From contig NBBA01000017.1 in assembly GCA_002794785.1 (NCBI GenBank), positions 868,001 to 932,000 on the forward strand: a stretch of DNA of 64,000 bases. Direction: 5' to 3'. Origin of the DNA: Coniferiporia sulphurascens. Its lineage: Eukaryota > Basidiomycota > Agaricomycetes > Hymenochaetales > Hymenochaetaceae. The position numbers were made by a program, and so were the translations under genes. Under the pieces are notes generated by a model. It saw only the letters and a list, made by a program, of their open reading frames with translations, did not search any database and was not told the DNA's origin. Below, piece by piece: positions 29,900 to 53,742 of the stretch (the stretch's first letter is position 1; the number at the start of each line of letters is the position of its first letter).

Positions 29900-30233
29900 T
29901 TTTTTTAATTTTTTTTAATTTGGTTTATTATTCCTACTGTGTTCTGTAATACACCTGTGGCCCCGTAGGGGCTGCCTGTAAACTACCTAACTACTGAGGC
30001 ACCCGTCATCGCTCATCGAGTGAAACTGGGCGGGGCGCGTGCCTCCAGGGAGGTCTAGTGTACTTACGTGCCCTACTAGGGATAAATAAGGAGGGGAAGA
30101 GGGAGGAATACATATTGCGACTACAAAGAACCCAAGCAAGTTAAAACGAGGTCAGGAAAAATGAGTCCCTTAGAAGCGGAAAGGAGTGGCTGTGATTGCC
30201 ATAGAAGAAACCGATGGGGGATCCGAAGGGCAG
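29900..30233 (-). other. Divergent LINE 3' UTR retaining both stem-loops
   Basis: Sequence differs strongly from types I and II, but the folds persist. Outer stem 30033-30040 pairs with 30066-30073 (7 of 8 pairs), inner CCTCC 30042-30046 with GGAGG 30049-30053. The terminal hairpin 29960-29972 is a GCCCC/GGGGC stem. The GATGACGGGTGCCTC box and AGGAATAATAA end are conserved. It may belong to family C, whose 3' end is not otherwise seen. Confidence 0.75.
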
Positions 30234-30363
30234 TCACAAGTCAGAGGGAAATGGGGGGAGTGTACCTGAGAGCTCCAAAAGGGCCTGGTCCGCGTCCTGA
30301 GTCCTGGGTCCCAGCAACCTGCGCACGTAGCCCCGGAGGGTATCCATGTCGAGGTTGTTGTCC
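30234..30363 (-). pseudogene. ORF2 C-terminal stub of the divergent LINE
   Basis: Reads DNNLDMDTLRGYVRRLLGP, aligning with DEDMDLDLLRDYMRRMLGP of types I and II, and ends PPFPSDL with a TGA at 30234-30236. Only ~43 codons are kept; the upstream side is the module B junction. Confidence 0.8.
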
Positions 30364-31634
30364 ACGATTAAGGGCGCCCTTGCGGGACCCATCACTACGC
30401 ATACACCTTCCTCATGACATCGCTGCCCCCAGGACAAAGGCCTTACACACGACATGCTGTCCTCTATGGTGCATTGGGTTGGGTAAGGCGTGCCGCGCCA
30501 GGAGAACACCCCGAGTGGAGGCCATGGCGCCATAGGCACTACTCCACCCATTGAGATGCCCCCCCTACCCTACACATTCCCTCCCTTGCCCCACTTTCCA
30601 CTGTAGAGCGCTGCTGGATCATGGGAATCAACTTAAGCCCGAAATGGGAATTACCCCCACCCGAACCCACAGAGGATTTAGTTCTCTCAAGCCAAATGAA
30701 GGGAACTACCCCCCACCGCTACGGCCCACTCAGAGGTCAGGTTACCCCAACATGAGTTTCCCGTTCCCATGCACGCGCTTCGGAGCCCAGGGTAAACCCC
30801 AGGGAATACTCAGGACAGAGTCCCACTTCCGGATCCGCAGCATACACAAGTCTCCGTGTTGCCAGAGGCTTGGACCCCGGCCTATCTCTTTCGAGGCTGC
30901 CAGGGAGTCTGCTTGACTAACCACCCCCAGTGGAGCACTGACCACCTCCTGTCGTTCCCAGTGAAGGGTTCATGAGTAGGGGCCTGCCATCTCCCCCAAG
31001 GGCCTGTGGTGGCCTGTTGCTCTCGCATCGGCTGGTTATCACCGACAACACCACATGTTATGAGACCCCTATGTCCTTATGGCATCCAATGCCGTCATCA
31101 GACACCCTCTCGGGATTTGGGGACGGCAGTTCTTTGATTAGTCTATGCCGAGGACTACGCAGCCCCAGGTCCGAGTTTCCCCAAACCCGAGGTTTCCCAA
31201 CTGAAGCTGACCGCTAGATGGGCAGGGGGTTTCCACCCTCCCGTAGGGATGTTAACGTCATGTCCCCCCCCGACTGGCAGGCATACGCACCCTTGCACCA
31301 CCGAGAGGTGGACCAGTGAGCACACTGCCTCGAGAAGGTCAGTGCAGACGTGAAGAAGGATCATCCTCACCGAGTCACCCCCCCCATTGCAACGTTTTCG
31401 ACAGGTTGCATACCCTCTGGTGAGCGGTTAAGCCCCTTTCACGCCATCCAGCGATGCCGCTACAGCACCTCGGTGGCCAGTGAGCAGCGCTCCTTAATAA
31501 AAGGTGCGCAGTCGGATGCCTTCTCTCATGACGCCCCAGTAGTATACCAGAGCAGAGCATGGGTTGCTGTGACTGACCAGAGACAACCCCAGAGCGAAGG
31601 TGAGATGGTGGCGGTAAGAGGACAAGAAGGATGT
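30364..31634 (-). repeat. Module B, copy 1 (full length, divergent)
   Basis: 1,271 bp, antisense. Starts ATCCTTCTTGTCC at 31634 and ends CAAGGGCGCCCTTAAT at the LINE junction. It matches the copies at 35995-37278 and 52415-53739 throughout, with many differences. No reading frame is preserved across copies, so it is likely non-coding. Most copies sit 5' of a LINE 3' piece. Confidence 0.82.
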
Positions 31635-31849
31635 GTAGTGATATGTATTCCTCCCTCTTTCTGTCACCACACTAATAGGGGCCCTTCCCACTTTGGCTTC
31701 CCTTGGGGAGCAGGGCCCCCGCCCAGTTTTGTGTGTTGCATGATGACGGGCGCCTCTGTTGTTATGTAGTTAGGGCCCCCCCTTTGGGGGGGCAGCTTGT
31801 AATTATGTAATACTGCAGGAATAATTTTAAAAAAAAAAAAAAAAAAAAA

Positions 31850-34459: not shown

Positions 34460-35994
34460 CTAATCAGAAGGAAAGGGGGGGAGTGTACCTGCTAGCTCCA
34501 AAAGGGCTGGGTCCGAGTCCAGGGTTTGTGGTCTGAGCATATGATGCATGTAATCCCATAGGAGGTCCAGGTCCATATCCTCATTGGTGGGGTGACCATC
34601 AAGGTCTATCGCAGCAAAGGAGAGCCGAATGGCACCCGCGGTATGGTTAGAAGGGCGGTTCAGGTGCCCCGTTAGTTTGAGCCAACGGCGTAGAACCAGG
34701 AGGCGGTTTTCGTCGGCCCACTCTGAGTGGTGGGCTGGGAGAGGGTCACATGGTGGCCACACGCGTCGTATCCATGATCGGAAAGTGCTGCAGCCGCCTA
34801 GAATGTGGGTGGTCGACTGCATGGGCCATGGGGGGTGGTTGTGCCATCTGCAGTGTGAAATCAGGCTGTGCCTGCGCCGGTAGGCCGAGTTGAAGCTCAG
34901 CCAGTAGCCCCCATAGGGACCTGCGTGACAGAGGACTTGTGCTACTGCTGATAGCTCATTGCGTGGGTGGTCAACCGAGTGCATGAGGAGCTTTCGCAGT
35001 TGCCGTGATGGGAGGCCATGTACTGCCAAGTATTTGTCGGCAGTGGAGGCGAGGGGGCGGGCTAGTGAGAGCATCCATCATTCCATTAAGGTGTGAACAG
35101 TGACCTCTTTTAGTGTGGAGGTGGATGGTTTGAGATCGGATGGGGGGAGTTCTGTCGCCAGCTTTGCTTCCGTGTCAGCCCATTCATTTCCGGGGATGTC
35201 CGAGTGTCCGGGGCACCATACGAAATGGACGGTGAGCTGGGGATACGAGTCCAGCAGAGTCTCCACACCCACTTTCCATATGTGGAGGAGGTGGGCACCA
35301 GGGGCGGCTGCCCATGTGCGGAAAAGGCATAGGGCGGTCAGCAAATCGGACAAGAAGAATATGTCCGATGCGACATGCAGTTGTGCTGGGAGGCGGCATG
35401 CTACCCAGCCCGGGGCCATTGCGAGGGAGAATTCCTCGGCATCCATGGCTGTGGCGCAGGTGGGGGACTCCAGTTGTCGGGACCGGAGTTGGGTGTGGCC
35501 AAGCATGGCACAAATGGCCGAGCCTGACTTATTGTCAATGTGGGAGCCATCGGTGAAGACTTGTACATGAGTGGTGTGGCCTAGTTGGCACGCAGTGGCC
35601 ACAAATGATTTCCGAGTGTTGGCGCTGACTGGGGTGATGGGGGTGGTGAAGCAAACGTGGCCCTTTGTAAAGGCCAGGGGGTCCATCCATGGGGGATGCG
35701 TGTATGCAGGGACCTGTTGAACCCGGGGGGCTCGGACCTGCAGAGAAAGGGAGAAAGGTCTGTTAGCTACGTTTTTAAAAAGTTTGTGGCCAATAGTGTG
35801 AGGGGTGCGCCATAGGCACAGAGAATGGGTCGTCTTTATATACTCAAAGTAGAAAGAGAGAGGGGGAACAGAGCAAAGAAAATTAGTGGAGTGGGGGGAG
35901 GCACCTTTGAAGACGCCCAATATCCAGTGGCAGGCTGTGTTTTGCACGGCCTGTAGGCGGTTTACCAGGGTTTTTTTTTTTTTTTTTTTGGCAC
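34460..35994 (-). pseudogene. ORF2 type II, thumb to C-terminus
   Basis: Reads KTLVNRLQAVQNTACHWILG onward in one frame to TAA 34460-34462. A single TGA near 35075 (ME*WMLSLA) matches CGA in sisters. RNase H motifs FTDGSHID, DAEEFSLA, SDLLTALC and GNEWADTEAK are all present. Near the 5' truncation the normal A6 in GCCAAAAAAC is an A19 run (35971-35989), adding lysines. Confidence 0.87.
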
Positions 35995-37278
35995 ATCCTT
36001 CTTGTCCTCTTACCACCACCATCTCTGGTTTTCACTGGGGGTTGTCTGGGGGTTCGTTGCAGCAACCTGTGTTCTGGTCTGGTATTCTACTGGGTTGACA
36101 TGAGAGAAGGCTTCTGACTACACACCTTTTACAAAGGAGTGTTGCTTGCTGGTCGCCGAGGTGCTGTAGCGGCGTCGTCTGATGGCGCAAAAGGGGCTCA
36201 CACCCGCCAGGGGGCAGGCAACCTGTCATTAACGTTGCAATGGGGGGGGATGGCTCAGTGAGTACTAAGATCCTTCTTCACATCTGCTGTGCTCTCTTGG
36301 GGCATGGTGCTTGGCTGGTCTGCCTTTCGGTGGCGCAAGGGGCACATGCCTGCCAGTCGGGGGGGACACGACGTTAACGTCCCCACACCCGCGCAGGGGG
36401 GGTAACCCTCTGCCCTTCAGTGGTCGGCTTCGGCCGGGAGACCTCGGGTTCGGGGAAACTCGGATCTAACCTTCGGGTTGGGACTTAAAAAATCCTGGGG
36501 CCGCGTTGTCCTTGGCATGACAAACCATAAAAACGGCCGCCCCAAATCCCGAAAGGGTCTCTGATGACGGCACTAGTTGCTATAAGGAGATAGGGGCTTC
36601 ATAACACATGGCGTTGTGGTAAGAACCAGCCGACGTGAAAGCGACAGGCCACCATGGGCCTTTTGGGGGGGTGTGGCTGGCCTTAGCCCTTTTGAGGGTA
36701 GGCATTGGTGCCCCCTGAGAGGTGGTTAGTCAAGCAGACTCCCTGGCAACCTTGGAAGAGATAGGCCGGGGTCCAAGCCTCTGGCGACATGTCAACTCTG
36801 GTATGCTGCGGATCCAGAAGCAGGCCTTGTGCCTGAGTATTCCCCTTCGGGGTTCTGAAGCGTGTGCTGGGGAACAGGAAACTCCGGGGGGGCCTAGGAA
36901 ACCCCTCCACTATGGAGCGAACTGTAGTGGTGGGGGATAGTTCCCTCCACTGGCTCCAGAGCACTAAATCTGGCATGGGTGCGTGTAGGAGCAAGTCCTA
37001 TTGCATGCTTAAGTTGATTCCCAGAAACTAGCAGTGCTCTACAATGGAAAGCGGGGTAAGGGGGGGAATGTGTAGGGTAGGGGGGGCACCCAATGGGTGG
37101 GGTAGTGCCTATGGCGCCACAACCCCCACTCGGAATGTCCTCCTGGCGCGGCACGCCCTTCCCAATCCAGCGCACTGTAGAGGACAGCATGTCGGGTATA
37201 AGTCCTTTGGTCAGGCATCTATGTCACGAGGAAGGTGTACACATAGTGGGGCCCCGCAAGGGCACTCTTTAATTCTGG
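35995..37278 (+). repeat. Module B, copy 2 (reference copy)
   Basis: 1,284 bp. The first ~30 nt (ATCCTTCTTGTCC, then ACCACCACCATC) resemble the LINE leader. Internal features include the palindrome GACGTTAACGTC at about 36370-36381, several short stems with TTCG loops (GGCTTCGGCC near 36426; ACCTTCGGGT near 36470), and two GGCGCAA...GGGGC motifs near 36185 and 36332. The 3' end is CTCTTTAATTCTGG with no A-tail. Function unknown. Weak A-box-like (36251-36262) and B-box-like (36447-36452) strings exist but are too far apart to be convincing. Confidence 0.8.
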
Positions 37279-37919
37279 CTGTCCCCACTCTCATGGAACA
37301 ATGGACACTCTCCTTAGCCTGCCCACTAGCCTCGACTGCTGACAAATATCTGGCGGTCCATGGCCTACCCTCACGCCGACCCCAAAAACTCCTCATGCAT
37401 TCGGTCAACCACCCTTGCAGTGAGCTATCGGCAGTCGCACAGGTCCTCTGCCGCACCGGTCCCTACAGGGGATACTGGCTGAGTTTTGACTCAGCCTACT
37501 GCCGCAGGCATGGCCTGATCTTACACTGTAGATGGCACAACCACCCTCCCTGGCCCGCGCAGTTGACCGCCCACATCCTCGGCTGCTGCAGTACTTTCCA
37601 TCCCTGGATACGATGCGTGTGGCCACCGTGGGACCCTTTCCCAGTCCACCATTCAGAGTGGGCTGACGAAAACCACCTCCCGGTTTTGCACTGCTGGCTA
37701 AAGCTGATGGGGCATCTTAACCGCCTCTCCGACCACGCCACGGGCGCCATCCGGCTGGCTTTTGCTGTGATGGACCTTGACGGCCACCCCACCAATGAGG
37801 ATATGGACTTGGACCTCCTAAGGGAATACATGTGTCATATGCTTGGACCTCGAGCCTGGGACTTGGACCCAGCCCTCTTGGAGCTATCAGGTATGCTCCC
37901 AACCTTCCCATCTGACTAA
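37279..37919 (+). pseudogene. ORF2 type II C-terminal part in the chimera
   Basis: Starts after the RNase H catalytic region (AVPTLMEQWTLSLA) and runs open to TAA 37917-37919. It keeps LASTADKYLAVHGLPS, YWLSFDSAY, HCRWHNHPPW and DEDMDLDLL-type blocks (here NEDMDLDLL). The frame is also open backward into module B to 37044, giving a 291-codon chimeric ORF; whether that is translated is unknown. No enzymatic domain is left. Confidence 0.85.
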
Positions 37920-38245
37920 CGCCTGCCTTTCGAAATCCCCCATGATACATCTTGGCCGGCACTCTTGCCCTCCCTTTCCATTTCTAAGCTTCTTACTTTA
38001 AACCTGCCCTCATCCGTTTGGTTTTGTTCATAGCAATATGTATCCCTCCCTCTCGTTTTGTTTCTTACTTAATAGGGGCTCTCCACACTACGGCACCCTT
38101 TGGGGAGCAGAGCCCCTGCCCAGTTTTGTGCAATGCGCAATGACGGGCGCCTCCGTTGTTATGTAGTTAGGGCCCCCCCTTCGGGGGGCAGCTTGTAATT
38201 ATGTAATACTGCAGGAATAATAATAATAATAATAATAAAATAAAA
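37920..38245 (+). other. LINE 3' UTR with terminal hairpin and tail
   Basis: Terminal hairpin 38172-38189 (TTC loop) and (AAT)n tail. The type II outer stem with the AGAGCCCC arm is present. Confidence 0.77.
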
Positions 38246-38313
38246 GGAAAGAAGGGCTGCCAAGCCCAGGCTCGTTGTGCCGAATGTGCTGGCCAGCACT
38301 TAATGGCCAAACC
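38246..38313 (+). pseudogene. Family C gag scrap (zinc-knuckle region)
   Basis: 68 bp encoding KGCQAQARCAECAGQHLMAK, matching the second knuckle of the family C gag at 32453-34137. It sits between a LINE tail and the leader of the family B LINE, so it is probably the pre-existing target. Confidence 0.7.
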
Positions 38314-38372
38314 ACCCTTCTTGACCAGTAACCACCACCATCAACTAGTGTGGGCAGCTAAAACTCCCCCAT
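38314..38372 (+). repeat. LINE leader, first of two flanking copies
   Basis: 59 bp, ACCCTTCTTGACC to CTCCCCCAT. It recurs at 39142-39200 with about five differences. The inserted unit 38373-39141 lies between, so this is either a very long target duplication or two independent leaders brought together. Confidence 0.6.
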
Positions 38373-39141
38373 TTTTTTAAAATTTATTATTATTATTATT
38401 CCTGCAGTATTACATAATTACAAGCTGCCCCCCCAAAGGGGGGGCCCTAACTACGTAACAATGGAGGCACCCGTCATGGCGCATTGCACCAAACTGGGCA
38501 GGGGCTCTGCTCCCCGAAGGGTGCCATAGTGTGAAGAGCCCCTATTTAGTAGAGAAACTGAGAGAGGGAGGGATACATATCACTATGAATAAACCAAGCG
38601 GTTGAGGGCAGGTTAAAGTAGGAAGCTTAGAAGTGGTAAGGGAGGGCGAGAGCACTGGCCGGGACATATCATGTGGGATTCCGAAAGGCAGGCTTTACTC
38701 GAGTGGGAAGGGAGGGAGCGTACCTGAAAGCTCCAAAAGGGACATGCCTGCCAGTCGGGGGGGGACACAACATTAATGTCCCCACACCTGTGCGGGGGGG
38801 GTAACCCTCTGCCCTTCAGTGGTTGGCTTTGGTCGGGAGACCTCGGGTTCGGGGAGACTCAGATCTGACCTTCGGGTCGGGACTTAAAATCCTGGGGCCG
38901 CGTTGTCCCTGGCATGACAAACCATAAAAACGGCTGCCCCAAATCCTGAAAGGGTCTCTGATGATGGCACTAGTTGCTATAAGGAGATAGGGGCTTCATA
39001 ACACATGGCGTTGCAGTAAGAACCAGCCGACACGAAAGTGACAGGCCACCATGGGCCTTTTGGGGGGTGTGGCTGGCCCTAGCCCTTTTGAGGGTAGGCG
39101 TTGGTACCCCCTGAGAGGTGGTTAGTCAAGCAGACTCCACA
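38373..39141 (-). mobile_element. Inverted chimeric insertion (LINE 3' end antisense, module B sense)
   Basis: From the left: antisense tail (38373-38399), antisense LINE 3' UTR with hairpin 38427-38445 and a ~15-codon ORF2 stub to 38741, then a module B fragment in + orientation (38742-39138). A normal chimera would have both parts in the same orientation. Inversion of the 5' portion alone fits twin priming, known for L1. Confidence 0.65.
38742..39138 (+). repeat. Module B, copy 3 (internal fragment, inverted)
   Basis: Matches 36334-36740 of the reference copy, from ACATGCCTGCCAGTCGG to GTCAAGCAGACTCC. The palindrome appears as ACATTAATGT, with CpG sites turned to TpG/CpA on both arms. Confidence 0.8.
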
Positions 39142-39198
39142 ACCCTTCTTGTCCAGTAACCACCACCATTGACTAGTGCGGGCAGCTAAAACTCCCCC
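39142..39198 (+). promoter_or_regulatory. LINE 5' leader of the family B element
   Basis: ACCCTTCTTGTCC start, ACCACCACCAT block and CTAAAACTCCCCC just before ATG 39199. The GTCC variant is the one also used by module B. Confidence 0.58.
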
Positions 39199-41238
39199 AT
39201 GTCGAACCCAGGCGATTACAGGAACACAATCCATCGAACAACCAGAACCAACCCCCTACCTGCCCCATCGGCTAGCGCCGATCCCGACTGGGTCGCCAGG
39301 ATGGCCGTCAACTGGGCCTCCGCCAGCGCCACCGCTGCCGCAAGGCACAGTACAACTGCCCCCACCACCCCCAGCCCCAACCCCTCCCAGGAACCGGCAT
39401 CCTCCCCAGACGTCCTAGCACCCTCCCCAGCCATCGGCGACTCCCAAATGATCTCGGCCTACGACTTCACTGCCCAAGTGCGCGGAATCAAGGGCAGCAT
39501 CCCGAGCTGGCTCCCCAGCCACCTCGGAAGGGTCGATCCATGGATCCATTGAAACAGGTGAGACAGCCCCAGGAATGGCAGTTGACCCCCATACCCCCCC
39601 GCAACAGGTGGGAGGCACAAGCCTCGGGCAGAAACACTCCTCAGCCGCCATGTTGCCTCTCACACCGAGAGGACCCCCACCCAACAACATGAACAGCACA
39701 CCGCAGGGTTCATGTACTCCCTTACCCGTGCCCTGGACGACTTTGACCAGCAGACCAGGGATGCCACCATCGAAACGATCGACATGAAGGCAGTGCAGTT
39801 TGTGGGCAACCTCCTCTGGAATGTCCAGAAGACACTGGCCAACATTGAGCAAGACAGGACATACCCCCAGAACATCATCTACTGCAACACGGTGATGGCC
39901 TACAACTTTGCGAGGGAGGGAGTGGTAATCGCCCTCCCAACGCCCTTCGCCCCAGCTTCCCCCCCCCAGAGGACCCCAGCCACAACCGGGACCCCGAACA
40001 CCGCCACCGTGACCCCAGAAATGAAGGCGCTGACTGATGCAGTCAAGCACCTGACAACTGACATAGCTTCCATCTCACGTCAGATGGCTTCCATTAGCTC
40101 TAGGCCCGCACCCTGACAACAGCAACAGCAACAACAGCAACCCGCCCCACAGGCCGCCCCCACCTCCTATGCACAAGTCGCCGTGGCAGCGGCCCCCCCA
40201 ACAGCCACCAACCCAACTCCAGTGGCCCCAGCCGCCGGAGTGGTCATCAACCCGGCACAGAAGAAGAAGAAGCATCAGCGTAAGGTGCCCCCCCCACCCA
40301 CAATGTACACCAAGGACCCAACCTTGGTCCTCACCCCCACAGTTGGCATATGGGCCAAAAATCAGAAGTCAGCAATGGCCTTGACTAAAACGTCCCATGA
40401 GTTCTTCGCTTCCCTCCCCACCGTGGACCAAGTCCCGGTCCTGTCCTCTTCCTACAATGTAAAGGGGAACATCGTGACCACATTCACGGCATGCCCATCC
40501 TCAGCTAACCTGACCACAGAGACGATTATCAATCGCCACTCCGTGGCCTACGCATCCCATATGTGCACAGAGTGCATAGCAGCAGGGATCAATGTCCCGG
40601 CTGCTTTCTCACTAACCCCCTCCAGAGTCCGCCCCCGGTCGGCATTGCGCATCTCCATGGTGCCCTGCAAAGACTTCCTGTTCGGCCAGAATGGACACAC
40701 CATCAACGAGAAGGCCCTCATGGCCGAAATCCAGCACAACCTGGCACTCCACAACCTCGACTTCATTGTCACCCCCCACTTCGCCACCACTGAGGATCAC
40801 CTGCCAACACTAGACAGGTGCCCAGTGGTCTTCTCCTTCGTCGACCCCAATGGCTCCATCTGCGAAAGACTCCTCAAGAGGCCGCGCATCTGGATGTTTG
40901 GATCTGCCCTCCGGCTCTCAGTCCCACCTGTCCGCCCCACCCTCACCCAGTGTGAATGGTGCCAAGGCCTTGGCCATGGAACCAAGGGCTGCCGTGCCCA
41001 GCCATGCTGTGCTGACTGCATGGGTGCCCATCTGACCCACAACCACCACAAATTGTGCGCCCACTGCACAACCGACGCAGTGCCTGAAGGCGACACATGC
41101 CCACACCCCCGCCTATGCAACAACTGCAAGGGTGACCACCCCACCACCCTACCGGCTTGCCCAAAGAAGAGGCGCTACCGCCAAATCGAAGAGGCCCTCA
41201 CCACCGACCCTACCAACAATCAGATGGAGGAGATATGA
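39199..41238 (+). pseudogene. gag-like ORF1, family B (frame breaks near the N-terminus)
   Basis: ATG 39199 opens 117 codons (MSNPGDYRNTIHRTTR) to TGA 39550-39552. The frame that continues through HGSIETGETAPGMAVDPHTP is shifted relative to it, and the copy at 49520 shows the same break. A second frameshift lies near 39680. From 39712 one frame holds to the end except TGA 40114-40116 (CGA in a sister) in front of the polyQ tract. Basic patch KKKKHQRK; knuckles CEWCQGLGHGTKGC, CADCMGAHLTHNH and CNNCKGDHPTTLPAC. End TGA 41236-41238 overlaps ORF2. Confidence 0.87.
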
Positions 41239-44200
41239 TAGAGAAACTCTCTATCCTACAGTGGAACACCACCCACTCACTAGCGGCAATACACTCCCTA
41301 ATCCCAATCCTCACAACTGACCCCTCCCCCCTGCACTTAATTCTTATTCAGGAACCGCCCTGGTATCAAATAGGTGTGCAACCCTCACTCACTGACCAGA
41401 CCGGCACCCCGGTCCTCAACGTCCCCACCATCCCAGGCTACGTCCCTGTACTACCACCAGAGGTCCGCCCTCAGGTAGTCACATACATATCCAGAGCCCT
41501 CCCTCCAACCTCATGGTCAATCCTTGGAGCCGCCTCACATGGCACCGATGTACTGATGGTGGAGGTATGATCCCAAATCACCCTCTGGGTGTGCAACTAC
41601 TATGGCATGCACCCTCTGGACCGAGAAAACGTTTCCCCACAGTACCCAGGTGAGTCTTTCTTATTTTCACTCCCCTCAGGGCTAGCCACCACCCTACTCG
41701 TGGCCGGCGACTTCAACCATCGCCACCACACATGGTCCGAATTCTCCATCCCACGATGGGATGACTTGAGGGCGCAACCCCTTGATGACTTTTTCTGTGG
41801 ACACAGCCTGGCACCTGCCCACCTCCCCGACTCTGACTCACAGCCCAACAGCAATCGCCAACGGTGCCCCATTGACATGATCTGGGCCCCACCTGTGGTC
41901 AACCCCAACTCTATTTTAGACATGGCCACCTCCGACCCCTCACCACTGTCCGACCACGCCCTCCTGCGGTGGTCACTGCCATTCCAGCCCCCCCCTCCCG
42001 TCCTAAAAACACGCCGGCTACTTCCAGCCGACAAGGAGGAATGGACCGACATAGCCTTCCCTCTCCTCGAAGCAGCCTTCTGCCTTCCAGGGCATGACAC
42101 CCACTCCCTGGACATCAAAGCCAAAGCGGTCCTCGACTCAATGGTCGCCACCCTCCAGCCGTTCACCCGCCTCTCCAAGCTGTCGAAAACGGAAGTCCCA
42201 TGGTGGTCACCCCACTGCAAGACCCTCCTATCTGCAATCCAGATGGCCACCACCCCCCTCCAGTGTGCATCAGCAAGAAGAGCCTTTAAAAGGGGCATAC
42301 GAACAGCCAAATGACAGTTCTACATGGACCAGGCATCGGAAGCGGATGCATCCAACATCTGGAACTGGGCCAAACATGGCCTCAGCAACCGACCCACCCC
42401 CATCCCCTCACTAAAAAGACGAGACGGCACCTTCACACAAACGGATGACGAGAAAGGTGAGCTCTTCCACGAAACTTTCTTCATGCCCCCCCCACCCCAG
42501 GCAGCGGCCAACCCCCTGCCGCCACCACCCCAACCAGCTGCCCTGCCCATACTCCTCATGGAGCTTACAGGGGCACTGTCAGACACATCCAACTTGTCAG
42601 CCCTGGGCCTCTTGGGAATAGGTTACCACCCCCTGAAATGGGTGGTGGACACCTACCCTGACAAGATTCTTACCCTTTTCAATGATTGTCTGCGCACAGG
42701 GCACCACCCCACATGCTGGCAAGCAGCAAAAGTGGTAATGCTCAGGAAGCCAAACAAGAAAGACCCCTTCTCACCGCGATCATACCAGCCCATCACCCTC
42801 AAGGAGACCTTAGGGAAACTCCTTGAAAAGATAATTGCTAACAGGCTCCAATACCTCACGAATACGAGGGATTGGTTGCCACCTAACCAGTATGGGGGGC
42901 GTCAGGGACACTCGGTCTACGACACCACCCAACACCTATTACAGATTGCGGAACGTGCCCACTCAGAAGGCCGTGTTTGCTCGGTCCTTGCAGTCGACAT
43001 CCAGGGTTTCTTCGACTCGGTACACCCACAACTCCTCCACCGACAACTGTTGGACCTCAGTTGCACGCCAGACATGGCCGACTGGTGTCTGTCCTTCATG
43101 ACAGACCGGCAGGTTGCTGTCGCCTTCGATGGTACCACCCTCCCTACTGCCCCCAAACCCGACTTCGGCACCCCACAGGGATCGCCAGTCTCCCCTATCC
43201 TGTCAACTATATTCGCAGGAGTGGTCCTCCGGCGCTTCCACCAAGGCGGCACCACCGTCTTGGCGTACATTGACGACCACTTACTTATCTGTGTAGGTCC
43301 CTCAGTGGCATCCAACTGCTGTGCCTTAGCATGCGCATACCAACAACTTGACACCCTCTTTGGCACCATCGGTCTCAACATCAAAGCCGCCAAGACAGAG
43401 TGCCTCCACTTCCACCCCCCTCGGTGACACACCGGCTATGACGGCTGGGACACGGCCAGGGTACAGGTCGACCCCAACACCCTGATCCGCCCCTCAATCC
43501 CACTCTGGTGGCTGGGGATATGGTGGGACCCAGGCCTCTCCTTCAAACCCCACGTGGAGCGAATGCGCTCCAAGGGGCTGTCCACACTCGCCGCCCTCCG
43601 CATTCTGGGAAACACCCAATGCGGAATTTCAGCCCTCCTCCTCCACTGCCTTTACACCTCCTGTGTCTGCTCTGTACTTACATGGGGGGCACCAGTTTGG
43701 TACCATGGCCGCCGCCAAAAAACTTTGGTAAACCGCCTGCAGACGGTACAAAACACGGCTTGCAGATGGATCTTAGGCATCTTTAAAGGCGCCTCCCCAT
43801 ACTCCACCAATTTTCTTTGTTCTGTTCCCCCTCTCTCTTTCTATTTTGAATATATAAAGACTACCCACTCCCTGCGCCTATGGCGCACCCCTCACTCTAT
43901 TGGCCGAAAATTATTTAAAAACATAGCTAACAGACCTTTCTCCCTTTCTCTGCAGGTCCGAGCTCCTCGGGTTCAACAAGTCCCTGCATACACGCATCCC
44001 CCATGGACAGACCCCCTGGCCTTTACTCAAGGAAGGGTCTGATTCTCCACCCCCTCTACCCTGGTCAGTGCTGACACATGGAAGTCTTTCGTAACAGTGG
44101 CGCATCAACTAGGGTCCACCCCCCATGTCCAGGTATTCACAGATGGCTCCTGCATTGACAATAAGTCGGGTTTGGCCATCTGTGCCATGCTGGGCAACAA

Positions 44201-45233
44201 CCGCCTCCGGTCCTGTTGACTAGAGTCCCCCACCTGTGCCACAGCCACGGACACCAAGGAGTTCTCCCTCGCCACGGCCCCCGGCTGGGTGGCATGCCGC
44301 CTCCCAGCTCAACTGCGTGTCGCATCAGACATCTTCTTCCTGTCTGATTCGCTGACAGTATTACACCTTTTCTGAATGTGGGCTGCTGCCCCCAGTGCCC
44401 ACCTCCTCCACATCTGGAAAGCGGGTGTAGAGACTCTTCTGGACTCGTACCCCCAACTCACCATTCACTTCATGTGGTGCCCCGGCCACTCGGACATCCC
44501 CAGGAATGAATGGGCCAATGCGGAAGCGAAACTAGCAATGGAGCTCCCCCCATCCGATCTCAAACCATCCACCTCTGTGCTAAAGGAAGTCGCCATCCAC
44601 ACCCTCATGGACAGGTGGACCCTCTCGCTAGCCCGTCCCCTCGCCTCAACTGCCAACAAATATCTGGCAGTACAGGGCCTCCCCTCCCGCCGACCCAGGA
44701 AGCTACTCATGCACTCAGTCGACCACCCACAAAGTGAGCTATCAGCAGTAGCCCAAGTCCTCTGTCGAGCCGGTCCCTATGGGGGCTACTGGCTGAGTTT
44801 TGACTCAGCCTACTGGTGCCGACACGGCTTGATCTCCCACTGCAGGTGGCACAACCACCCCCCATGGCCTGCACAGTCGACCACCCACATTCTAGGCGGC
44901 TGTAGTACATTCCAACCATGGATACGACGCGTATGGCCACCTTGGGACCCTCTCCCAACCCACCATTCAGAGTGGGCTGACGAAAACTGCCTCCCAGTTA
45001 TGCGCTGCTGGCTTAGGCTAACAGGGCATCTCAACCGCCTCTCTGAATGTGCCGCAGGTGCCATCCGGCTGTCATTCGCTGCGATGGACCTGGATGGACA
45101 CCCAACCAATGAGGATATGGACTTGGACCTCCTACGGGATTACATGCATCGTATGCTCAGACCCTGAACCCAGGACTCAGACCCAGCCCTTTTGGAGCTA
45201 TCAGGTACGCTTCCCCCCTTTCCGCTCGAGTAG
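41235..45233 (+). pseudogene. ORF2 type II, 1,333 codons, seven TGA stops and no frameshift
   Basis: Starts MIEKLSILQWNTTHSL. All of it lies in one frame, interrupted by TGA at 41568, 42312, 43425, 44040, 44217, 44373 and 45165; none is TAA or TAG, and most align with CGA in sisters. Endonuclease: LIQEPPWYQ, VAGDFNHRHHTW, LSDHALL. RT: KPNKKDPFS, VDIQGFFD, GTPQGSPVSP and AYIDDHLLI (active-site Asps kept). RNase H: FTDGSCID, TKEFSL, SDSLTVLH; the last Asp is lost (NEWANAEAK). End TAG 45231-45233. It shows the full-length design of type II. Confidence 0.92.
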
Positions 45234-45561
45234 AAATGCCTGCCTTTCGGATTCCCACAAGATATGTCTCAGCCGGTGCTCTCGCCCCCCCTTTCCTATT
45301 CTAAGCTTCTTACATTTAACCTGCCCTCAACCACCCGGTTTGTTCGTAGCGATATGTACTCCTCCTTCTACCACTCTCTCATTAAACAGGGACTCTTTTC
45401 ACTTCGGCACCCCTCAGGGAGCAGAGCCCCCGCCCAGTTTTGTGTGATGCGCAATGACAGGTGCCTCCATTGTTATGTAGTTAGGGCCCCCCCTTCGGGG
45501 GGGCAGCTTGTAATTATGTAATACTGCAGGAATAATAATAAAATAAAATAAAATAAAAAAA
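45234..45561 (+). other. LINE 3' UTR with terminal hairpin and AAAAT tail
   Basis: Terminal hairpin 45486-45504 (TTC loop). The outer stem here reads GGGACTCT against AGAGCCCC, one uncompensated pair. Tail is (AAAAT)n. Confidence 0.77.
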
Positions 45562-46112
45562 GTCAAGTGGACTCCCTGGCAGCCTCAGAAGAGATAGGCC
45601 GGGGTCCAAGCCTCTGGTGACATGTCAACTCTGGTATGCCACGGATCCAGAAGCGGGCCTTATGCCTGAGTATTCCCCTTCGGGGCTCTGAAGCGTGTGC
45701 TGGGGAACAGGAAACTCTGGGGGGGCCTAGGAAACCCCTCCACTATGGAGTGAGCTGTAGCAGTGGGGGATAGTTCCCTCCACTGGCTCCAGAGCACTAA
45801 ATCTGGTGTGGGTGCATGTAGGAGTAAGTCCTATTGCATGCTTAAGTTGATTCCCAGAAATGAGTGGCACTCTACAATGTTAAGTGGGGTAAGGGGGGGA
45901 ATGTGTAGGGTAGGGGGGGCACCCAATGGGTGGGGTAGTGCCTACAGCGCCACGACCCTCACTTGGAATGTCTCCCTGGTGCGGCACGCCCTTCCCAATC
46001 CAGCGCACCATAGAGGACAGCATGTCAGGTATAAGTCCTACCAGTCAGGCATCTATGTCATGAGGAAGGTGCACATGTAGTGGGGCCCCGCAAGGGCGCT
46101 CTTTAATTCTGG
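45562..46112 (+). repeat. Module B, copy 4 (3' 551 bp)
   Basis: Begins at GTCAAGTGGACTCCCTGG, matching 36729 onward of the reference copy, and ends CTTTAATTCTGG. It contains the ~80-codon ORF string SGVRGGMCRVGGAPNGWGS, also present at 37044 onward and antisense before 52651. Confidence 0.82.
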
Positions 46113-48503
46113 TGCTCATACCGACCCATCTCCCTCGAAGAGACCTTAGGGAAACTCCTTGAAAAGATCATTGCTAACTGGCTCCGGTTCCTCGCTAACA
46201 CGAGAAATTGGCTGCCACCTAACCAATACGGGGGGCATCAAGGACACTCTGTCTACGACACCACCCAGCACCTCCTACAGATTGCAGAAAGAGCCCATGC
46301 CGAGGGCCGCATATGTTCAGTCCTTGCAGTCAACATACAAGGCTTCTTCGACTCAGTAAACCCTCAACTCCTCCACCGGCAACTGCTGGACCTCCAATGC
46401 CTGCCAGACATGGCGGATTGGTGTCTGTCCTTCATGATGGATCGGCAGGTAGCCATCGCTTTCGATGGCACCACCCTCCCAACTGCCCAGAAACCCGACC
46501 TCGGCACCCCCCAAGGGTTGCCAGTATCCCCAATTCTCTCGACCATATTTGTGGGCGTGGTCCTCCAGAAATTTCATCAAACCGGCACCACTGCCCTAGC
46601 ATATGTCGACAACCACCTCCTCATGTGCGTCGGACCCAGCATGGCATCCAACTGCCAGCAACTGTCTAACGCCTACCACCAACTCAATGCCCATTTCGGC
46701 GCCATTGGGCTCAACATCGAAGCCGCCAAAACGGAGTGCCAGCACTTCCACCCACCTCGACGCCGCTCAGTCGCCTACACCGACTGGGACACTGCCGGGG
46801 TTTGGGTGGCCCCTACCACACTAATCCGACCCTCCATCCCGCTTCGCTGGCTGGGAATATGGTGGGACACCGCCCTCACCTTCAAGGCCCACATAGAATG
46901 CATGCACTCCAAGGGCCTCTCCACGCTAGCCGCCCTCCACATCCTCGGTAACACGGAACACGGAATTTCGGCCCTCCTCCTCCACTGACTATATACCGCC
47001 TGCATTCGCTCTGTTCTCACATGGGGCGCCCCGGTTTGGTACCATGGCCGGCGCCAAAAAACATTAGTAAGCCATCTGCAGGCTGTGCAAAACACGGCAT
47101 GTAGATGGATTCTGGGCATCTACAAAGGTGCCTCCCCCTTCTCCACAAATTTCCTTTGTTCCCTTCCCCCTCTCTCTTACTATTTTGAATATGCTAAGAC
47201 TCTCCATTCTCTTCACCTCTGGCGTACCCCACACTCCATCGGTAGAAAATGATATAACAAATCAGTAGCTAACTGTCCCTTCTCCACTTCTCTGCAGGTC
47301 TGGGTCCCTTGGGTACAACCGGTCCCCACATACACTCATCCCCCATGGACAGATCCTCTGGCATTTATGAATGGACGAGTCTCGTTTGCCACTCCTATCA
47401 CTCCGGTCAGTGAAGACACCCGCAAGGAATTTGTGGGCGCCGCGTGCTCCCTGAGCACCCTCCCCCATCTCCAGGTTTTCACCAATGGCTCCCACATTGG
47501 CTCAAAATCTGGGTCAGCAGTCTGCGCCATGGAAGGCCTTACATGCCTCAAGTCTTGCCGGCTTGCCTCCCCCACCTGTGCTACAGCTACAGATGCTGAA
47601 ATCTTCTCTCTCACCTCTGCACCAAGCTGGGCTGCACACCACCTCCAGGAGCTCCTGCCTGTCACATCCAACATCTTCTTTTTGTCAGATTTGCTGACGG
47701 CACTCCACCTGATCCGAACATGGGCGCCAGTTCCAGGTGTGCACCTCCTCCACCAATGGAAGGCAGGGGTCCAGACTCTATTGGACTCATACCCGGATCT
47801 CTCCATGCATTTCATCTGGTGTCCGGGTCACTCCGACATCCCAGGGAATGAATGGGCAGACCGTGAGGCGAAGTTTGCAACGAATCTCCCCCCATCTCCC
47901 CTTGCACCCTCCATCTCCACACTGAAAGAGACCGCCATCAACACCCTCATGGAGCGATGGACCCTCTCTCTCACCCGCCCACTTGCCTCGACAGCTGACA
48001 AATACCTAGCTGTCAACAGCATCCCCTCTCGCCGGCCCTGAAAGCTCATTACTCAGTCAGTCGACCACCCCTGCCGGGAGCTCTCCACAGTTGCCCAGGT
48101 TCTCTGTCGTCCCAGTCCCTATGGGGGCTACTGGCTGAGCTTCGACTCAGCCTACCGACACAGGCACAGCCTGATCTTGCACTGCCATTGGCATAACCAC
48201 CCCCCTCCACCACGAGACCCTCTCCCGGTCCACCACTCAGAGTGGGCTGATGAAAACTGCCTACCGGTTTTGCACCGTTGGCTAAGGCTAACAGGGCACT
48301 TAAACCGCCTCTCCGACCACACTGCAGGCGCCATATGGCTAGTATTTGCTGCAATGGACCTCGACGGACACCCAACCGACGAGGATATGGACCTGGACCT
48401 CCTACGGGACTACATGCGTCGTATGCTCGGACACTGAACCCAGGACTCGGACCCGGCCCTTTTGGAGCTCTCAGATATGCTCCCCCAATTCCCTCATGAT
48501 TAG
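46113..48503 (+). pseudogene. ORF2 mosaic: type I RT/RNase H joined to a type II C-terminus
   Basis: One frame of 797 codons. RT active sites are mutated: VNIQGFFD (Asp to Asn) and AYVDNHLLM (second Asp to Asn). TGA stops at 46986, near 47248, near 48039 and 48435. RNase H first Asp is Asn (FTNGSH). At HCHWHNHPP (about 48208) ~90 nt are missing, and the sequence changes from type I to type II (PLPVHHSEWADEN), including the 3' UTR. This indicates recombination or template switching between types. End TAG 48501-48503. Confidence 0.86.
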
Positions 48504-48840
48504 TGCCCGTCTTTCGGACTCCTATGGATACGTCTCGGCCGGCGCTCTTGCCAACCCCCTTCTCCATTCTAAGCTTCTTATTTGACCTGCCCTCGCCCGC
48601 TTGGTTAGTTCGTAGCGATATGTACTCCTCCTCCTCTCACTGCATTTCCTTCACTAACCCAATAGGGGCTCTCCACACTTCGGCACCCTTTCGGGAGCAG
48701 AGCCCCCGCCCAGTTTCGTGCGATGCACGATGATGGGCGCCTCTGTTGTTATGTAGTTAGGGCCCCCCCTTCGGGGGGGCAGCTTGTAATTATGTAAACA
48801 CTGCAGGAATAATTTAAAAAAATAAAAATAAAAATAAAAT
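48504..48840 (+). other. LINE 3' UTR with terminal hairpin and tail
   Basis: Type II 3' UTR. Terminal hairpin 48762-48780 (TTC loop); tail (AAAAAT)n. The usual AATACTGCAGG reads AAACACTGCAGG. Confidence 0.76.
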
Positions 48841-49224
48841 AACCACCCCCCCTGGCCAGCCCAGTCAACCGCCCACGTCTTGGGCGGATGTCGCACTTTC
48901 CGACCATGGATCCACAAGGTCTGGCCCCCCTGTGACCCACTTCCGACCCACCACGCCGAGTGGGCCGATGAAAACCGCCTCCAGGTTCTGCACCGCTGGC
49001 TTAAGCTGATGGGGCACCTCAACCGCTTTTCCGACTGCACCTCTGCCGCCATCCACCTGGCCTTCACCGCAATGGAGCTGGAGGGGCACCTGACCGACGA
49101 AGATATGGACTTGGACCTCCTCAGGGAATACATGAGTCATATGCTTGGACCCCGTACCCAGGACCCGGACCCAGCTCTCTTGGAGCTTTCAGGTGTGCAT
49201 CCTCCCTTTTCCTCTGATCTATGA
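48841..49224 (+). pseudogene. ORF2 type I C-terminal stub
   Basis: Open for 127 codons from NHPPWPAQSTAHVLGG to PPFSSDL, stop TGA 49222-49224. It contains the HAEWADEN and DEDMDLDLLREYM blocks. No catalytic domain remains. Confidence 0.84.
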
Positions 49225-49519
49225 CTGCCTTTTGGACTCTCCCGCATATGTCCCAGCCGGCGCTCTCGCCCTCCCTTTCCAATTCTAAGCTACCCCCTTT
49301 TGCCTGATGTCATCCATTTGGCCTGGCTGTAGTGATACATATTCCTCCCTCCTTCTGTGTACTTACTAATAGGGGCCCTTCCCACTCTGGCTCCCACCCA
49401 GTTTTGTGTGTTGCACAATGACAGGCGCCTCCGTTGTTATGTAGTTAGGGCCCCCCCTTTGGGGGGCAGCTTGTAATTATGTAATACTGCAGGAATAATA
49501 GAAAAAAAAAAAAAAAAAA
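49225..49519 (+). other. LINE 3' UTR with inner-stem deletion
   Basis: About 20 nt between CTGGCTCCC and CCCAGTTTTG are missing, removing the 3' arm of the outer stem. Terminal hairpin 49450-49467 (TTT loop) is kept; the tail is poly(A). Confidence 0.75.
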
Positions 49520-50461
49520 GGCAGGCATCCCGAGCTGGCTCCCCAGCCGCCTCGGTCGGGTTGACCCATGGATCCAATGAATTCAGTGAGACAGCCCCAG
49601 GAATGGTGGTTGACCCCCATACCCCCCCACAACAGGTGGGAGGCGCAAGCCTCGGGTGGAAAGACTCCTCAGCCACCATGTTGCCTCTCACCCCAAGAGG
49701 ACCCCCGACCCAAGCACAGCACGAACCCCATGCCATGGGGTTTATGCATGCCCTCTCACACACCCTGGACGACTTCGACCAGAACACCAGGGACGCCTCC
49801 ACCGAAGACATCGACATCAAGGCAGCACAGTTTGTGGGCGACCTCCTCTGGAATGTCCAAACAATGCTGGCCAACATTGCACAAGAAAGGAAAGACCCCC
49901 AACACATCATCTACTGCAATGTGGTCATGGCCTACAACTTCGCAAGGGAGGGGGCGGAAATTGCCCTCCCAGAACCCTTTGCCCCAGCTCACCCCCCCCC
50001 AGAGGGCCCTGGCCACCACTGGGCCCTCCGGAACCACCACCATGACCCCAGAAATGAGGGCGCTGACTGATGCAGTCAAGTGCCTGACTACTGACATGGC
50101 TTCTATTTCACGCCAGATGGCTTCCATCAGTTCTAGGCCCGCCCCTCGCCAACAGCAGCAACAACAACAACAGCAACCCACCCCCCAGGCCATCATTCAG
50201 TATAACCACCCCCCCTGGCCCACACAGTCGACTGCCCACATCTTAGGCGGCTGCAGCACATTCCACTCATGGATATGATGTGTATGGCCACCTCGGGACC
50301 CTCTCCCAGTCCACCATTCAGAGTGGGCTGATGAACACCACCTCCTGGTTTTGCGCCATTGGCTCAAGCTGACAGGGCACTTAAACCGCCTTTCCGACCA
50401 CACTGCAGGCGCCATCAGGCTGGCATTTGCCGCGATGGACCTAGACAGCCACCCAACCGAC
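49520..50461 (+). mobile_element. Internally deleted family B LINE (gag fused to ORF2 C-terminus)
   Basis: Family B gag 49520-50197 passes directly into the ORF2 C-terminal region at 50198, a deletion of about 4.7 kb compared with 38314-45561. The right end is cut at 50461 by an antisense tail. Confidence 0.8.
49520..50461 (+). pseudogene. gag::ORF2 fusion fragment
   Basis: Gag part: SIPSWLPSRLGRVDPWI, then the same frame break as at 39550, then MVVDPHTPPQQVGGAS to PFAPA, a C-run frameshift near 50005, and the polyQ tract (50153-50177). After PQAIIQ the frame enters ORF2 at YNHPPWPTQSTAHILGG, so gag and ORF2 pieces are fused in frame until TGA 50276-50278 (CGA in sisters). ORF2 sequence continues to HPTD at 50461. 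No intact domain. Confidence 0.8.
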
Positions 50462-50783
50462 TTTTTTTATTTATTTATTTATTTATTATTCCTGCAGTGT
50501 TACATAATTACAAGCTGCCCCCCCAAAGAGGGGGCCCTAACTACATAACAATGGAGGTGCCTGTCATTGCACATCGCACAAAACTGGGTGGGGGCTCTGC
50601 TCCCTGTAGGGAGCCGAAGTGTGAAGAGCCCCTATTGCGTAGGAAACCAAGAGAAAGAGGGATACATATCGCTACGAACAAACCAGGTGGTTAAGGGCAG
50701 GTTAAAGTAGGAAGCTTAGAAGTGGAAAGGGAGGGCGAGAGCGCTGGCTGGGACGTATCATGGGGGATACCGAAAGGCAGGCT
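50462..50783 (-). other. LINE 3' UTR with terminal hairpin
   Basis: Terminal hairpin 50517-50535 with one mismatch in the GC stem; AAAT-rich tail at 50462-50490. Confidence 0.75.
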
Positions 50784-52414
50784 TTATTCGAGGGGGAAGG
50801 GCGGGAGTGTACCTGAGAGCTCCATAAGGGCTGGGTCTGAGTCCTGGGTTTGGGGTCCGAGCATACGACACATGTAATCCTGTAGGAGGTCCAGGTCCAT
50901 ATCTTTGTCAGTAGGGTGCCCATCCAGGTCCATTGCGGCAAAGGATAGCCGGATGGCGCCTGCGGCGTGTTCCGAAAGGCGGTTGAGGTGCCCCGTCAGC
51001 TTTAGCCAACATCGCAGAACTGGGAGGTGGTTTTCGTCAGCCCACTCTGAGTGGTGGACTGGGAGAGGGTCCCAAGGTGGCCATACACGTCGTATCCACG
51101 GGTGGAAAGTACTACAGCCGCCCATGATGTGGGCGGTCGACTGCACAGGCCAGGGGGGGTGGTTGTGCCATCTGCAGTGCGAAATCAAGCCATGCCTGTG
51201 GTGGTAGGCTGAGTCAAAGCTCAACCAGTAGCCCCTGTAGGGACCGGTGTGGCAGAGGACCTGAGCGACTGCAGATGGCTCGTTGCATGGGTGGTCGACC
51301 GAATGCATGAGAAGCTTTCTAGGTTGGCGTGAGGGTAGACCCTGGACCGCCAAGTATTTGTTGGCTGTCGAGGCAAGGGGGCAGGCTATTGAGAGTGTCC
51401 ATCTTTCCATGAGGGTGTGGATGGCGACCTCTTTTAGGGCAGAGGTGGAGGGTTTAAGGTCGGATGGGGGGAGCTCCATCGCCAGCTTCGCTTCCATGTC
51501 AGCCCATTCGTTTCTGGGGATGTCCGAGTGTCCGGGACACCACATGAAATGGATGGTGAGTTGGGGGTACAAGTCCAGCAGGGTTTCCACACCCGCTTTC
51601 CAAATGTGGAGGAGGTGGGCACCTGGGGCGGCAGCCCAAGTTCGGAAAAGGTGGAGGGCGGTCAGCGAATTGGACAAAAAGAAGATGTCCGATGCGACGT
51701 GCAGTTGCGCTGGGAGATGGCATGCTACCCAGCCCGGGGCCGTTGCAAGGGAGAACTCCTTGGCATCTGTGGCTGTGGTGCAGGTGGGGGACTCCAGTTG
51801 GTGTGACCGGAGTTGGGTGTTGCCTAGCATCGCGCAGATGGCTGAGCCCGACTTATTGTCCATGCGGGAGCCATCGGTGAAGACCTGGACGTGGGGGGTG
51901 GCGCTTAGTCAGCGCGCAGCAGTTACGAATGACTTCCGGGTGTTGGCACTAACCGGGGTGGTGGGGATGGTGAAGTGAACCCGGCTCTTCATGAATGCCA
52001 GTGGGTCCATCCATGGGGGATGCATGTATGCAGGGACCTGTTGAACCCGGGGGGCTCGGGCCTGCAGAGAAAGGGAGAAGGGTCTATTAGTTACATTTTT
52101 AAAAAGTTTACGACCAACAGAGTGCGGGGTGCGCCAGAGGCGCAGAGAATGGGTTGTCTTTATATATTCGAAATAGAAAGAGAGAGGGGGAACAGAGCAA
52201 AGAAAATTAGTGGAATGGGGGGAGGCGCCCTTAAAGACACCCAGAATCCAGCGGCAGGCCGTGTTTTGTACCGCCTGCAGTCGGTTCACCAGAGTTTTTT
52301 GGCAGCGGCCATGGTACCAGACTGGCGCCCCCCATGATAATATGGAGCGGACGCAGGAGGTGTATAGGCAGCGGAGTAGGAGGGCCGATATGCCGCGTTG
52401 GGTGTTGCCTAGAA
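50784..52414 (-). pseudogene. ORF2 type II, thumb to C-terminus, in the chimera
   Basis: One frame from ILGNTQRGISALLLRCLY at 52414 to PPFPLE at 50784, with one TGA at 51909-51911. RNase H motifs FTDGSRMD, DAKEFSLA, SNSLTALH (Asp to Asn) and NEWADMEAK. The C-terminal YWLSFDSAY and HCRWHNHPPW blocks are complete. Entry into the LINE is ~12 codons into the thumb, different from the other chimeras. Confidence 0.87.
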
Positions 52415-53739
52415 TGCCAGAGTTAAAGAGCGCCCTTGCAGGGCCCCACTATGCGTACACCTTCCTTGTGACATAGATGCCTGACCAAAGGACTTATACC
52501 CGACACGCTGTCCTCTATGACGTGCTGGATTGGGAAGGGCATGCTGCGCCAGGAGGACATTCCGAGTGAGGGTCACGGCGCCATAGGCACTACCCCACCC
52601 ATTGGGTGCCCCCCCTACCCTACACATTCCCCCCCTTACCCCACTTTCCATTGTAGAGCGCCACTAGTTTCTGGGAATCAACTTAAGCACGCAATAGGGC
52701 TTACTCCTACATGCACCCACGCCAGATTTAGTGCTCTGGAGCCAGTGGAGGGAACTATCCCCCACCGCTACAGCTCGCTCCATAATGGAGGGGTTTCCTA
52801 GGCCCCCCTGGAGTTTCCTGTTCCCCAGCACACGCTTCAGAGCCCCAAGGGGGAATACTCAGGCACAAGGCCCGCTTCTGGATCCGCAATGTACTGGAGT
52901 TGACATGTTGCCGTCACTTGGACCCCAGTGCTTGTTACAGCCGCCAGGGAGTCCGCTCCGACTAACCACCTCTCGAGGGGTACCAGCGTCCTTCCCACTT
53001 CGATGGGAGAGGGCCGGCTACCAGGGACTTCCCATGACTGCTAGGTGAGCCCCAGCATTGTCCCCCCAAGAGGCCCATGGTGGCCTGTCACTTTCGTGTC
53101 GGCTGGTTCTTACTGCAACGCCATGTGTTATGAAGCCCCTATCTCCTTATAGCAACTAGTGCCGTCATCAGAGACCCTTTCAGGATTTGGGGTGGCCGTT
53201 TTTATGGTTTGTCATGCCAAGGACAACGCAGCCCCAGGATTTTTTAAGTCCCGACCCAAAGGTCAGATCCGAGTTTCCCCAAACCCAAGGTCTCCCGGCC
53301 GAAGCCGACTGCTGAAGGGCAGAGGGTTACCCCCCCCCGCGCAGGTGTGGGGACGTTAACGTCATGTCCCCCCCCGACTGGCAGGCATGCGCCCCTTGCA
53401 CCGCCGAAAGGCGGACCAGCCAAGCACCATGCCCCAAGAGAGCACAGCAGACGTGAAGAAGGATCTTGGTACTCACTGAGCCATCCCCCCCCATTGCAAC
53501 GTTAATGACAGGTTGCCTGCCCCCTGGCGGGTGTGAGCCCCTTTCGCACCATCAGATGACACCGCTACAGTGCCTCGGCGACCAGCGAGCAACACTCCTT
53601 TGTAAAAGGTGTGTAGTTGGAAGCCTTCTCTCATGTCGACCCAGTAGAATACCAGACCAGAACACGGGTTGCTGCAACGAACCCCCAGACGACCCCCAGT
53701 GAAAACCAGAGATGGTGGTGGTAAGAGGACAAGAAAGAT
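52415..53739 (-). repeat. Module B, copy 5 (full length, antisense)
   Basis: 1,325 bp. Starts ATCTTTCTTGTCC at 53739, ends CTTTAACTCTGG at the LINE junction. Colinear with 35995-37278, including the GACGTTAACGTC palindrome (53352-53363). Confidence 0.84.
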
Positions 53740-53742
53740 GGC

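Follow-up and report, generated by a model that had tools for sequence, protein, structure and literature searches.

A sequence unit of about 1.3 kb, here called module B, has been copied more than 100 times into the genome of the basidiomycete Coniferiporia sulphurascens, probably a wood-inhabiting fungus. B seems to ride on the machinery of long interspersed nuclear elements (LINEs) and often to acquire a new LINE tail. We analysed B in a 64,000-nucleotide stretch (the window; positions 868001-932000 of contig 17, NBBA01000017.1) and across the 39.3-Mb, 31-contig assembly from which it comes (GCA_002794785.1). B is joined directly to LINE 3' pieces, and its junctions are sequence-specific: CCG*C in families BI-BIII and BIV (the asterisk marks the junction) and CCG* only on a third type of LINE. 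The B-LINE chimeras are a composite system of the MINE/WEIRD kind. On balance, we think it probable that B is a non-coding RNA unit that lives off LINEs and is joined to their tails by template jumping.

LINE copies form a nest in the window; one of them (R2788) provides the coordinate frame for all LINE positions given here, with the reverse transcriptase (RT) domain at 3623-4291 and RNase H at 5000-5407. The second open reading frame (ORF2) of the LINE carries RVT_1 and RNase H domains. Its best protein matches, which cover most of the query at 60-62% identity, are chiefly hypothetical proteins of Coniferiporia weirii, a Hymenochaetales basidiomycete, that have an RVT_1 or RNase H domain. 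The original prediction placed B at five sites in the window. It is present at all five, but as four copies, two of the pieces being halves of a single 5'-truncated B (B positions 347-748 and 734-1284) into which a full-length LINE has inserted, duplicating the target GTCAAG(C/T)(A/G)GACTCC (Table 1). All four copies continue directly, as predicted and with no intervening A-tail, into the 3' part of a LINE that has the same orientation. The LINE is entered at 3644 (within the RT domain), 4471, 5466 (after RNase H) and 5980. The LINE piece behind the split B is itself broken by a 5'-truncated LINE at 48206-48840.

A genome-wide search with B that took no regard of its ends gave at least 45 matches: 39 start within three bases of the B start and 29 extend to its final base, with 25 doing both. 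The 15-base end pattern GCNCTTTAATTCTGG, allowing one mismatch, occurs at 80 places compared to 13 for the reversed pattern; inspection of all 80 identified 70 B ends (BI-BIII) and 10 sites that are not B (L071, L077-L085). A diverged family, BIV, ends in GCTCTTAATTCTGG and was found at 45 places, all inspected, with none in the control. LINE sequence in the same orientation follows 70/70 BI-BIII ends, the divergent window copy W31, and 45/45 BIV ends (44 mapped by BLAST and one, L132, by eye, where the LINE resembles the W31-type tail), so the recurrent chimeras foreseen from the window are borne out. The 71 ends comprising BI-BIII and W31 occupy 47 LINE positions, although near-identical pairs or trios among the BI-BIII ends are possible duplicates. 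The BIV ends use 36 positions, nine of them shared with the first set. In total, BI-BIV provide 115 junctions at 73 distinct LINE positions, and a poly(A) of B's own or an independent B insertion was seen at none of these 115 ends. One BIV copy (L142) is joined at LINE position 94, near the LINE 5' end.

Variable entry into the LINE was thus correctly anticipated, but entry is not arbitrary. CpG observed/expected in the window is 0.52, a strong loss within the nest, and about 70% of the differences among B copies of one family are of CpG type, the remainder affecting 2-3% of positions. Because CpG loss has affected much of this DNA, we read CG, TG and CA together as ancestral CpG. At the 46 BI-BIII sites (W31 being left out of the motif counts), the LINE base is C at -3 (0.74), C/T at -2 (0.89), G/A at -1 (0.82) and C at +1 (0.76). 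An ancestral CpG lies at -2/-1 in 32/46 sites against a background of 9.1% (P 4e-23), estimated from 10,936 positions within the chimeras' own LINE pieces. Among these 32, +1 is C in 25 (36% in the background), and 18 of those 25 also have C at -3 (background 49%). BIV repeats the motif, with CpG at 19/35 sites, C at +1 at 28/35 and the full CCG*C at 16/35. This count leaves aside L138 and L161, which have no LINE context, and includes L132, which is unmapped to the reference and does not enter the 71 positions usable for combined motif work. Among the latter, the -1 base is most often G, the last base of B, at 40/71. The third LINE type has the native sequence TTGCCG|ACACC (one copy inspected), and a fifth B family, BV, is joined to it at the bar.

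In the units with clear duplications, B and its LINE tail entered the genome together. We tested 21 units (24 less L014, L023 and W45) for a target-site duplication placed at the first C of B and directly after the LINE tail, and in eight the duplication exceeds the maximum of 200 mispaired controls. Since these duplications enclose B, LINE and tail together, they indicate single retrotransposition events, in agreement with the original prediction. W31 scored zero in this test, yet TATCACTAC is repeated at both its ends. The 5' flanks of B differ between copies.

The unit has constant ends. In an alignment of 32 full-length copies, 29 begin CATCC or CATCT and 29 end CTTTAATTCTGG, counts that are not independent because copies were picked as full length or by their end; the 39/45 and 29/45 of the unrestricted search are fairer. 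The old families W31 and L019b, which differ from a BI copy by 24% and 30%, respectively, retain both the leader and the ...GG end, and B always ends in GG, confirming the predicted constancy. At the 5' side, the LINE start CATCCTTCTTGACCAGTAACCACCACCATC and the B start CATCCTTCTTGTCCTCTTACCACCACCATC have a leader of about 30 nucleotides that is nearly the same, a pattern found, with at most one mismatch, at 664 places in the genome against none in the control. As this leader is common to B and the LINEs, B resembles a parasite driven by LINEs more than a host RNA picked up by chance; the simplest reason for sharing it would be that the leader is an internal promoter.

B is probably non-coding, the longest open frames in six copies being 115-160 amino acids and lying in different frames. 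An Rfam search of the window and B gave nothing at the gathering threshold (one match, E 2, lay far below it), and a tRNA scan found none. Tested for conserved structure against column shuffles, 12/16 B windows have z of -3 or below. For the LINE 3' region, windows 1-4 of six (taken as coding) range from +0.7 to -0.9, and windows 5 and 6 (taken as the 3' untranslated region (UTR), the last ~250 nucleotides) score -5.9 and -7.4. Because antisense B scores nearly the same as sense (mean z -2.53 versus -2.63) and the LINE 3' UTR windows also score, conserved RNA structure in B is claimed only weakly. The high-scoring stretch at the LINE 3' end is perhaps a recognition element for the RT. A telomerase RNA was rejected, there being no CUAACCCUAAC-like stretch in B 35995-37278 (one copy, by eye, with the repeat unit assumed), and AAUUCUGG at the B 3' end was considered as a candidate Sm-like site.

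Two cases depart from the pattern of differing junctions. W31, L107, L110 and L115 share both junction and LINE tail, which makes 4/5 of the W31-type copies with a readable end (L111 has a W31-type B with another junction). The W31 type is therefore a fixed composite family. BV joins the third LINE at one point at four places (an insertion interrupts one of these matches; the other three are whole), and the other 36 scored matches to this LINE all begin exactly at the BV junction, with a different 5' part. BV has replaced the 5' part of a LINE that is cut only in ORF1. A single shared junction is thus absent from BI-BIV but holds for most W31-type copies and for BV on the third LINE. This third LINE family (L116, L167, L168), which lies in chromosome arms and whose 40 scored matches are 94-100% identical across 123 bases, is apparently younger than the nest LINEs. 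Elsewhere, B subfamily and LINE type are strongly associated: BI is found with type I in 14 cases and type II in one, and BII/BIII in 7 and 19, respectively (Fisher P 5e-5; three undecided of 44 were dropped, W31 was counted as BII and some short pieces are narrowly typed). This may reflect only shared periods of activity.

The model we propose starts from a B RNA, predicted from the DNA, with a defined, non-polyadenylated 3' end, transcribed from the putative promoter in the leader. While copying LINE RNA by target-primed reverse transcription, the LINE RT would stop before two pyrimidines (YY, mostly CC); the C at the end of its cDNA would then pair with the G that terminates B RNA, and the enzyme would go on to copy B as far as its 5' end. 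The base after YY is mostly G here, matching the terminal G of B. We found no solo B among the 70 + 45 junctions, the ten outlying loci L106-L115 (two read via L136 and L148) or L116, in a search that covered the best 100 of 147 core matches and all of the 45 first-search matches except eight that are short of the B end. As no solo B was found, free B RNA would derive from the chimeric copies themselves. Occasionally a chimera would become a lasting element, as both the W31 composite and BV on the ORF1-cut LINE imply. For the joint-making step itself, we lean slightly towards template jumping by the LINE RT. A more speculative extension, which we consider rather unlikely, is that B perpetuates itself as an RNA parasite without any solo gene: every genomic copy would be chimeric, and B RNA, excised from chimeric transcripts at ...GG|C, would be rejoined to a newly cut LINE tail at CCG|C in each following generation. 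If true, cutting and pasting would take place at the RNA level, in a cycle tied to reverse transcription by the LINE, and this cycle could also provide LINEs with a new 5' region.

Several observations weigh against template jumping as outlined, or against the evidence for it. GG occupies -2/-1 in only 1/40 of the sites with G at -1, where 30% would be expected (P 9e-6), so pairing to the B end alone does not select the sites. As a control, we examined ten 5'-truncated LINEs without B that have clear duplications. Position -2 tends to be a pyrimidine in them (0.79) and position -1 a G (0.57), as expected of an enzyme that tends to stop there, and 3/10 fit YR*Y; this preference at -2/-1 may be a general property of the enzyme, although ten copies are few. 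However, they start with C only once, so the B sites are not simply general stop sites and C at +1 distinguishes the B joints (Fisher P 5e-5, in a test that adds the 46 and 35 sites, nine being the same position). Unpairedness is equal at B sites and control sites, which gives no hint of pausing at RNA structures. The number of sites used by more than one B family (9) is what the motif alone would give (8.9), and we dropped the idea of junction hot spots. The motif also fits an endonuclease. In addition, 13/21 units have no duplication above the mispaired controls, one of the eight that do (L025) is marginal (5.9 against a control maximum of 4.9), and a solo B source gene may lie outside the matches covered.

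As microhomology alone does not fit, RNA cleavage and ligation is a live rival to a template jump. Here, LINE RNA would be cut at CYG|C by an Ire1-like endonuclease, and an RNA ligase would attach the resulting 3' fragment to B RNA at its 3' end, all before reverse transcription starts. A G|C cut of this kind at the B/LINE junction of old chimeric transcripts (GG|C) would release B once more. The LINE motif (C at -3, Y at -2, G at -1, C at +1) matches published Ire1 specificities, CNG|(C/A)NGN and UG|C, with G|C as the minimum (PMC8104961). The GG depletion speaks against simple microhomology, and ligation has been proposed for U6/LINE-1 chimeras (PMC13174262). Nonetheless, G at +3 is not enriched (0.16), the sites have neither an excess of unpaired bases nor a preference for loops, +1 is not C at 11/46 and 7/35 sites, and a putative ligatable 3' end on B is required. 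The -2/-1 tendency shared with non-B truncated LINEs fits enzyme stopping better, and the sites in the similar MINE system, GCC*A/U, are not Ire1-like (PMC2104539). We regard cleavage and ligation as possible but the less likely route.

The remaining explanations are far less credible. Self-copying of one or a few master B-LINE elements with a fixed junction describes most of the W31 type and BV on the third LINE, and some near-identical BI-BIII copies, possibly duplicates, do share joints (L041/L042, L054/L059, L072/L075, L030/L064/L066). For BI-BIV as a whole it is refuted by the 115 junctions at 73 positions; moreover, nine B pairs reach 94% identity, the highest value among the 22 compared, yet eight of these pairs differ in junction. 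The LINE types that carry the B families also diverge by about 27%. Overall, it is very improbable. Insertion of B as a separate DNA or long terminal repeat (LTR)-type element beside LINEs, or of LINEs beside B, might be suspected in so dense a LINE nest. It is even harder to sustain: duplications enclose B, LINE and tail, each of the 115 B ends has LINE sequence as its 3' neighbour whereas the flanks on the 5' side vary, and no solo B with its own flanking duplication was seen. We give least weight of all to B being a 5' exon spliced to cryptic 3' splice sites in LINE RNA. A constant B end with varying LINE entry would suit splicing, but AG is the commonest -2/-1 pair at 0/71 sites, where the motif is CG/TG/CA then C. 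This excludes ordinary splicing, and with it a spliced LINE derivative, which would need an AG acceptor before the LINE entry.

The closest fungal precedent is MINE, the WEIRD-MGL composites of Magnaporthe (PMC2104539; also mentioned in passing in PMC3978060). Our comparison is of architecture, and there the predicted parallel holds. Both have a full-length, non-coding 5' unit (1.1 kb in MINE, ~1.3 kb for B) joined directly and in sense to a variably truncated LINE. Both also have flanking duplications, no solo copy found, a preferred junction sequence and some sites common to several elements. In the MINE account, the RT leaves the LINE just before YY (mostly CC), the next base is A/U, the motif is GCC*A/U and no microhomology was found, whereas B junctions follow CCG*C instead and at many sites share one G. 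B also differs in sharing a 5' leader with its LINEs and in having several diverged families, one a fixed composite and one replacing a LINE 5' part. WEIRD itself was considered not to be a transposable element but possibly a housekeeping non-coding RNA (PMC2104539). The mammalian U6/LINE-1 chimeras likewise have a full-length 5' RNA in sense, a truncated LINE and flanking duplications, and for them both ligation and template switching have been proposed (PMC13174262). U6, however, is a host small nuclear RNA, and B has no Rfam family at gathering and no solo gene found. Among the open-licence papers listed, we found no report of the B unit or of CCG*C, PMC2104539 being the source that treats such fungal chimeras.

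What is new here is the sequence-specific junctions, the LINE-shared leader, the lack of a solo B among the matches covered, the fixed composite family and the LINE 5' part replaced by B. Short interspersed nuclear elements (SINEs) and composites such as SVA are non-autonomous LINE passengers, SINEs carrying one fixed LINE-like tail. The W31 type, most copies of which have a fixed tail, behaves like one, whereas BI-BIV have no fixed 3' tail and repeatedly gain new ones. MINE left two puzzles: no solo WEIRD was found, and the joints lie at a motif. The 115 junctions with a sharp, replicated motif, and the failure to find a solo unit in a 31-contig assembly, bear on both, and MINE-type units may be parasites with a LINE-like leader rather than host RNAs. 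The choice between template jump and RNA ligation becomes directly testable in the B-LINE system, and the fusions illustrate how a LINE can swap one 5' region for another.

Table 1. B copies, LINE pieces and insertions (positions in the window unless a locus is named; limits of full-length and W31-type B include the first C)
Feature	Position	Strand	Remarks
LINE copy R2788, coordinate frame	2788-9213	+	start carries the same leader as B
Divergent LINE 3' end fused to W31-type B	29900-30361	-	~67% to other LINEs; junction identical to L107, L110, L115
Divergent W31-type B	30362-31633	-	ends TTAATCGTGG
Full-length B	35994-37278	+	leader CATCCTTCTTGTCCTCTTACCACC at start, CTTTAATTCTGG at end
LINE 3' piece fused to B 35994-37278	37279-38246	+	entry 5466, after RNase H; AAT/A tail
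5' half of 5'-truncated B	38739-39138	+	B 347-748; cut by later LINE
Full-length LINE within truncated B	39139-45561	+	target duplicated
3' half of split B	45562-46112	+	B 734-1284; ends CTTTAATTCTGG
LINE 3' piece fused to split B	46113-49519	+	entry 3644, RT domain
LINE 3' piece fused to B 52417-53740	50458-52416	-	entry 4471
Full-length B, subfamily BII	52417-53740	-	
Insertion inside B	L019 4712-5272		
Insertion inside B	L087 777-1338		
Insertion inside B	L088 459-1017		

Among the matches listed (for the leader, 100 of 664), leader and B-end matches are mostly clustered in one block per contig, for example at 1.31-1.55 Mb on C1, 1.51-1.73 Mb on C2, 2.04-2.33 Mb on C3 and from 0.60 Mb on C4, as expected for LINE-rich centromeres. 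Two B copies on different contigs contain an insertion of ~560 bp with a 6-bp duplication at the identical B position, and a third has one of similar length at another position. Locus L093 has a 44-nucleotide inverted B 5' end (1-44) upstream of a B, and a 60-nucleotide leader-only LINE fragment at 38313-38372 in the window faces an inverted LINE. The chromosome arms also hold a dispersed, non-autonomous element of ~1 kb (L117-L120, L166) whose leader is nearly the same as that of B and the LINEs. Its tail is (CAT)n, its duplication is AAGTCGTTA(T/C)GGTC, and its longer copies are 79-90% identical; at L119 463-568, two of these elements lie head to head, ~46 bases apart.

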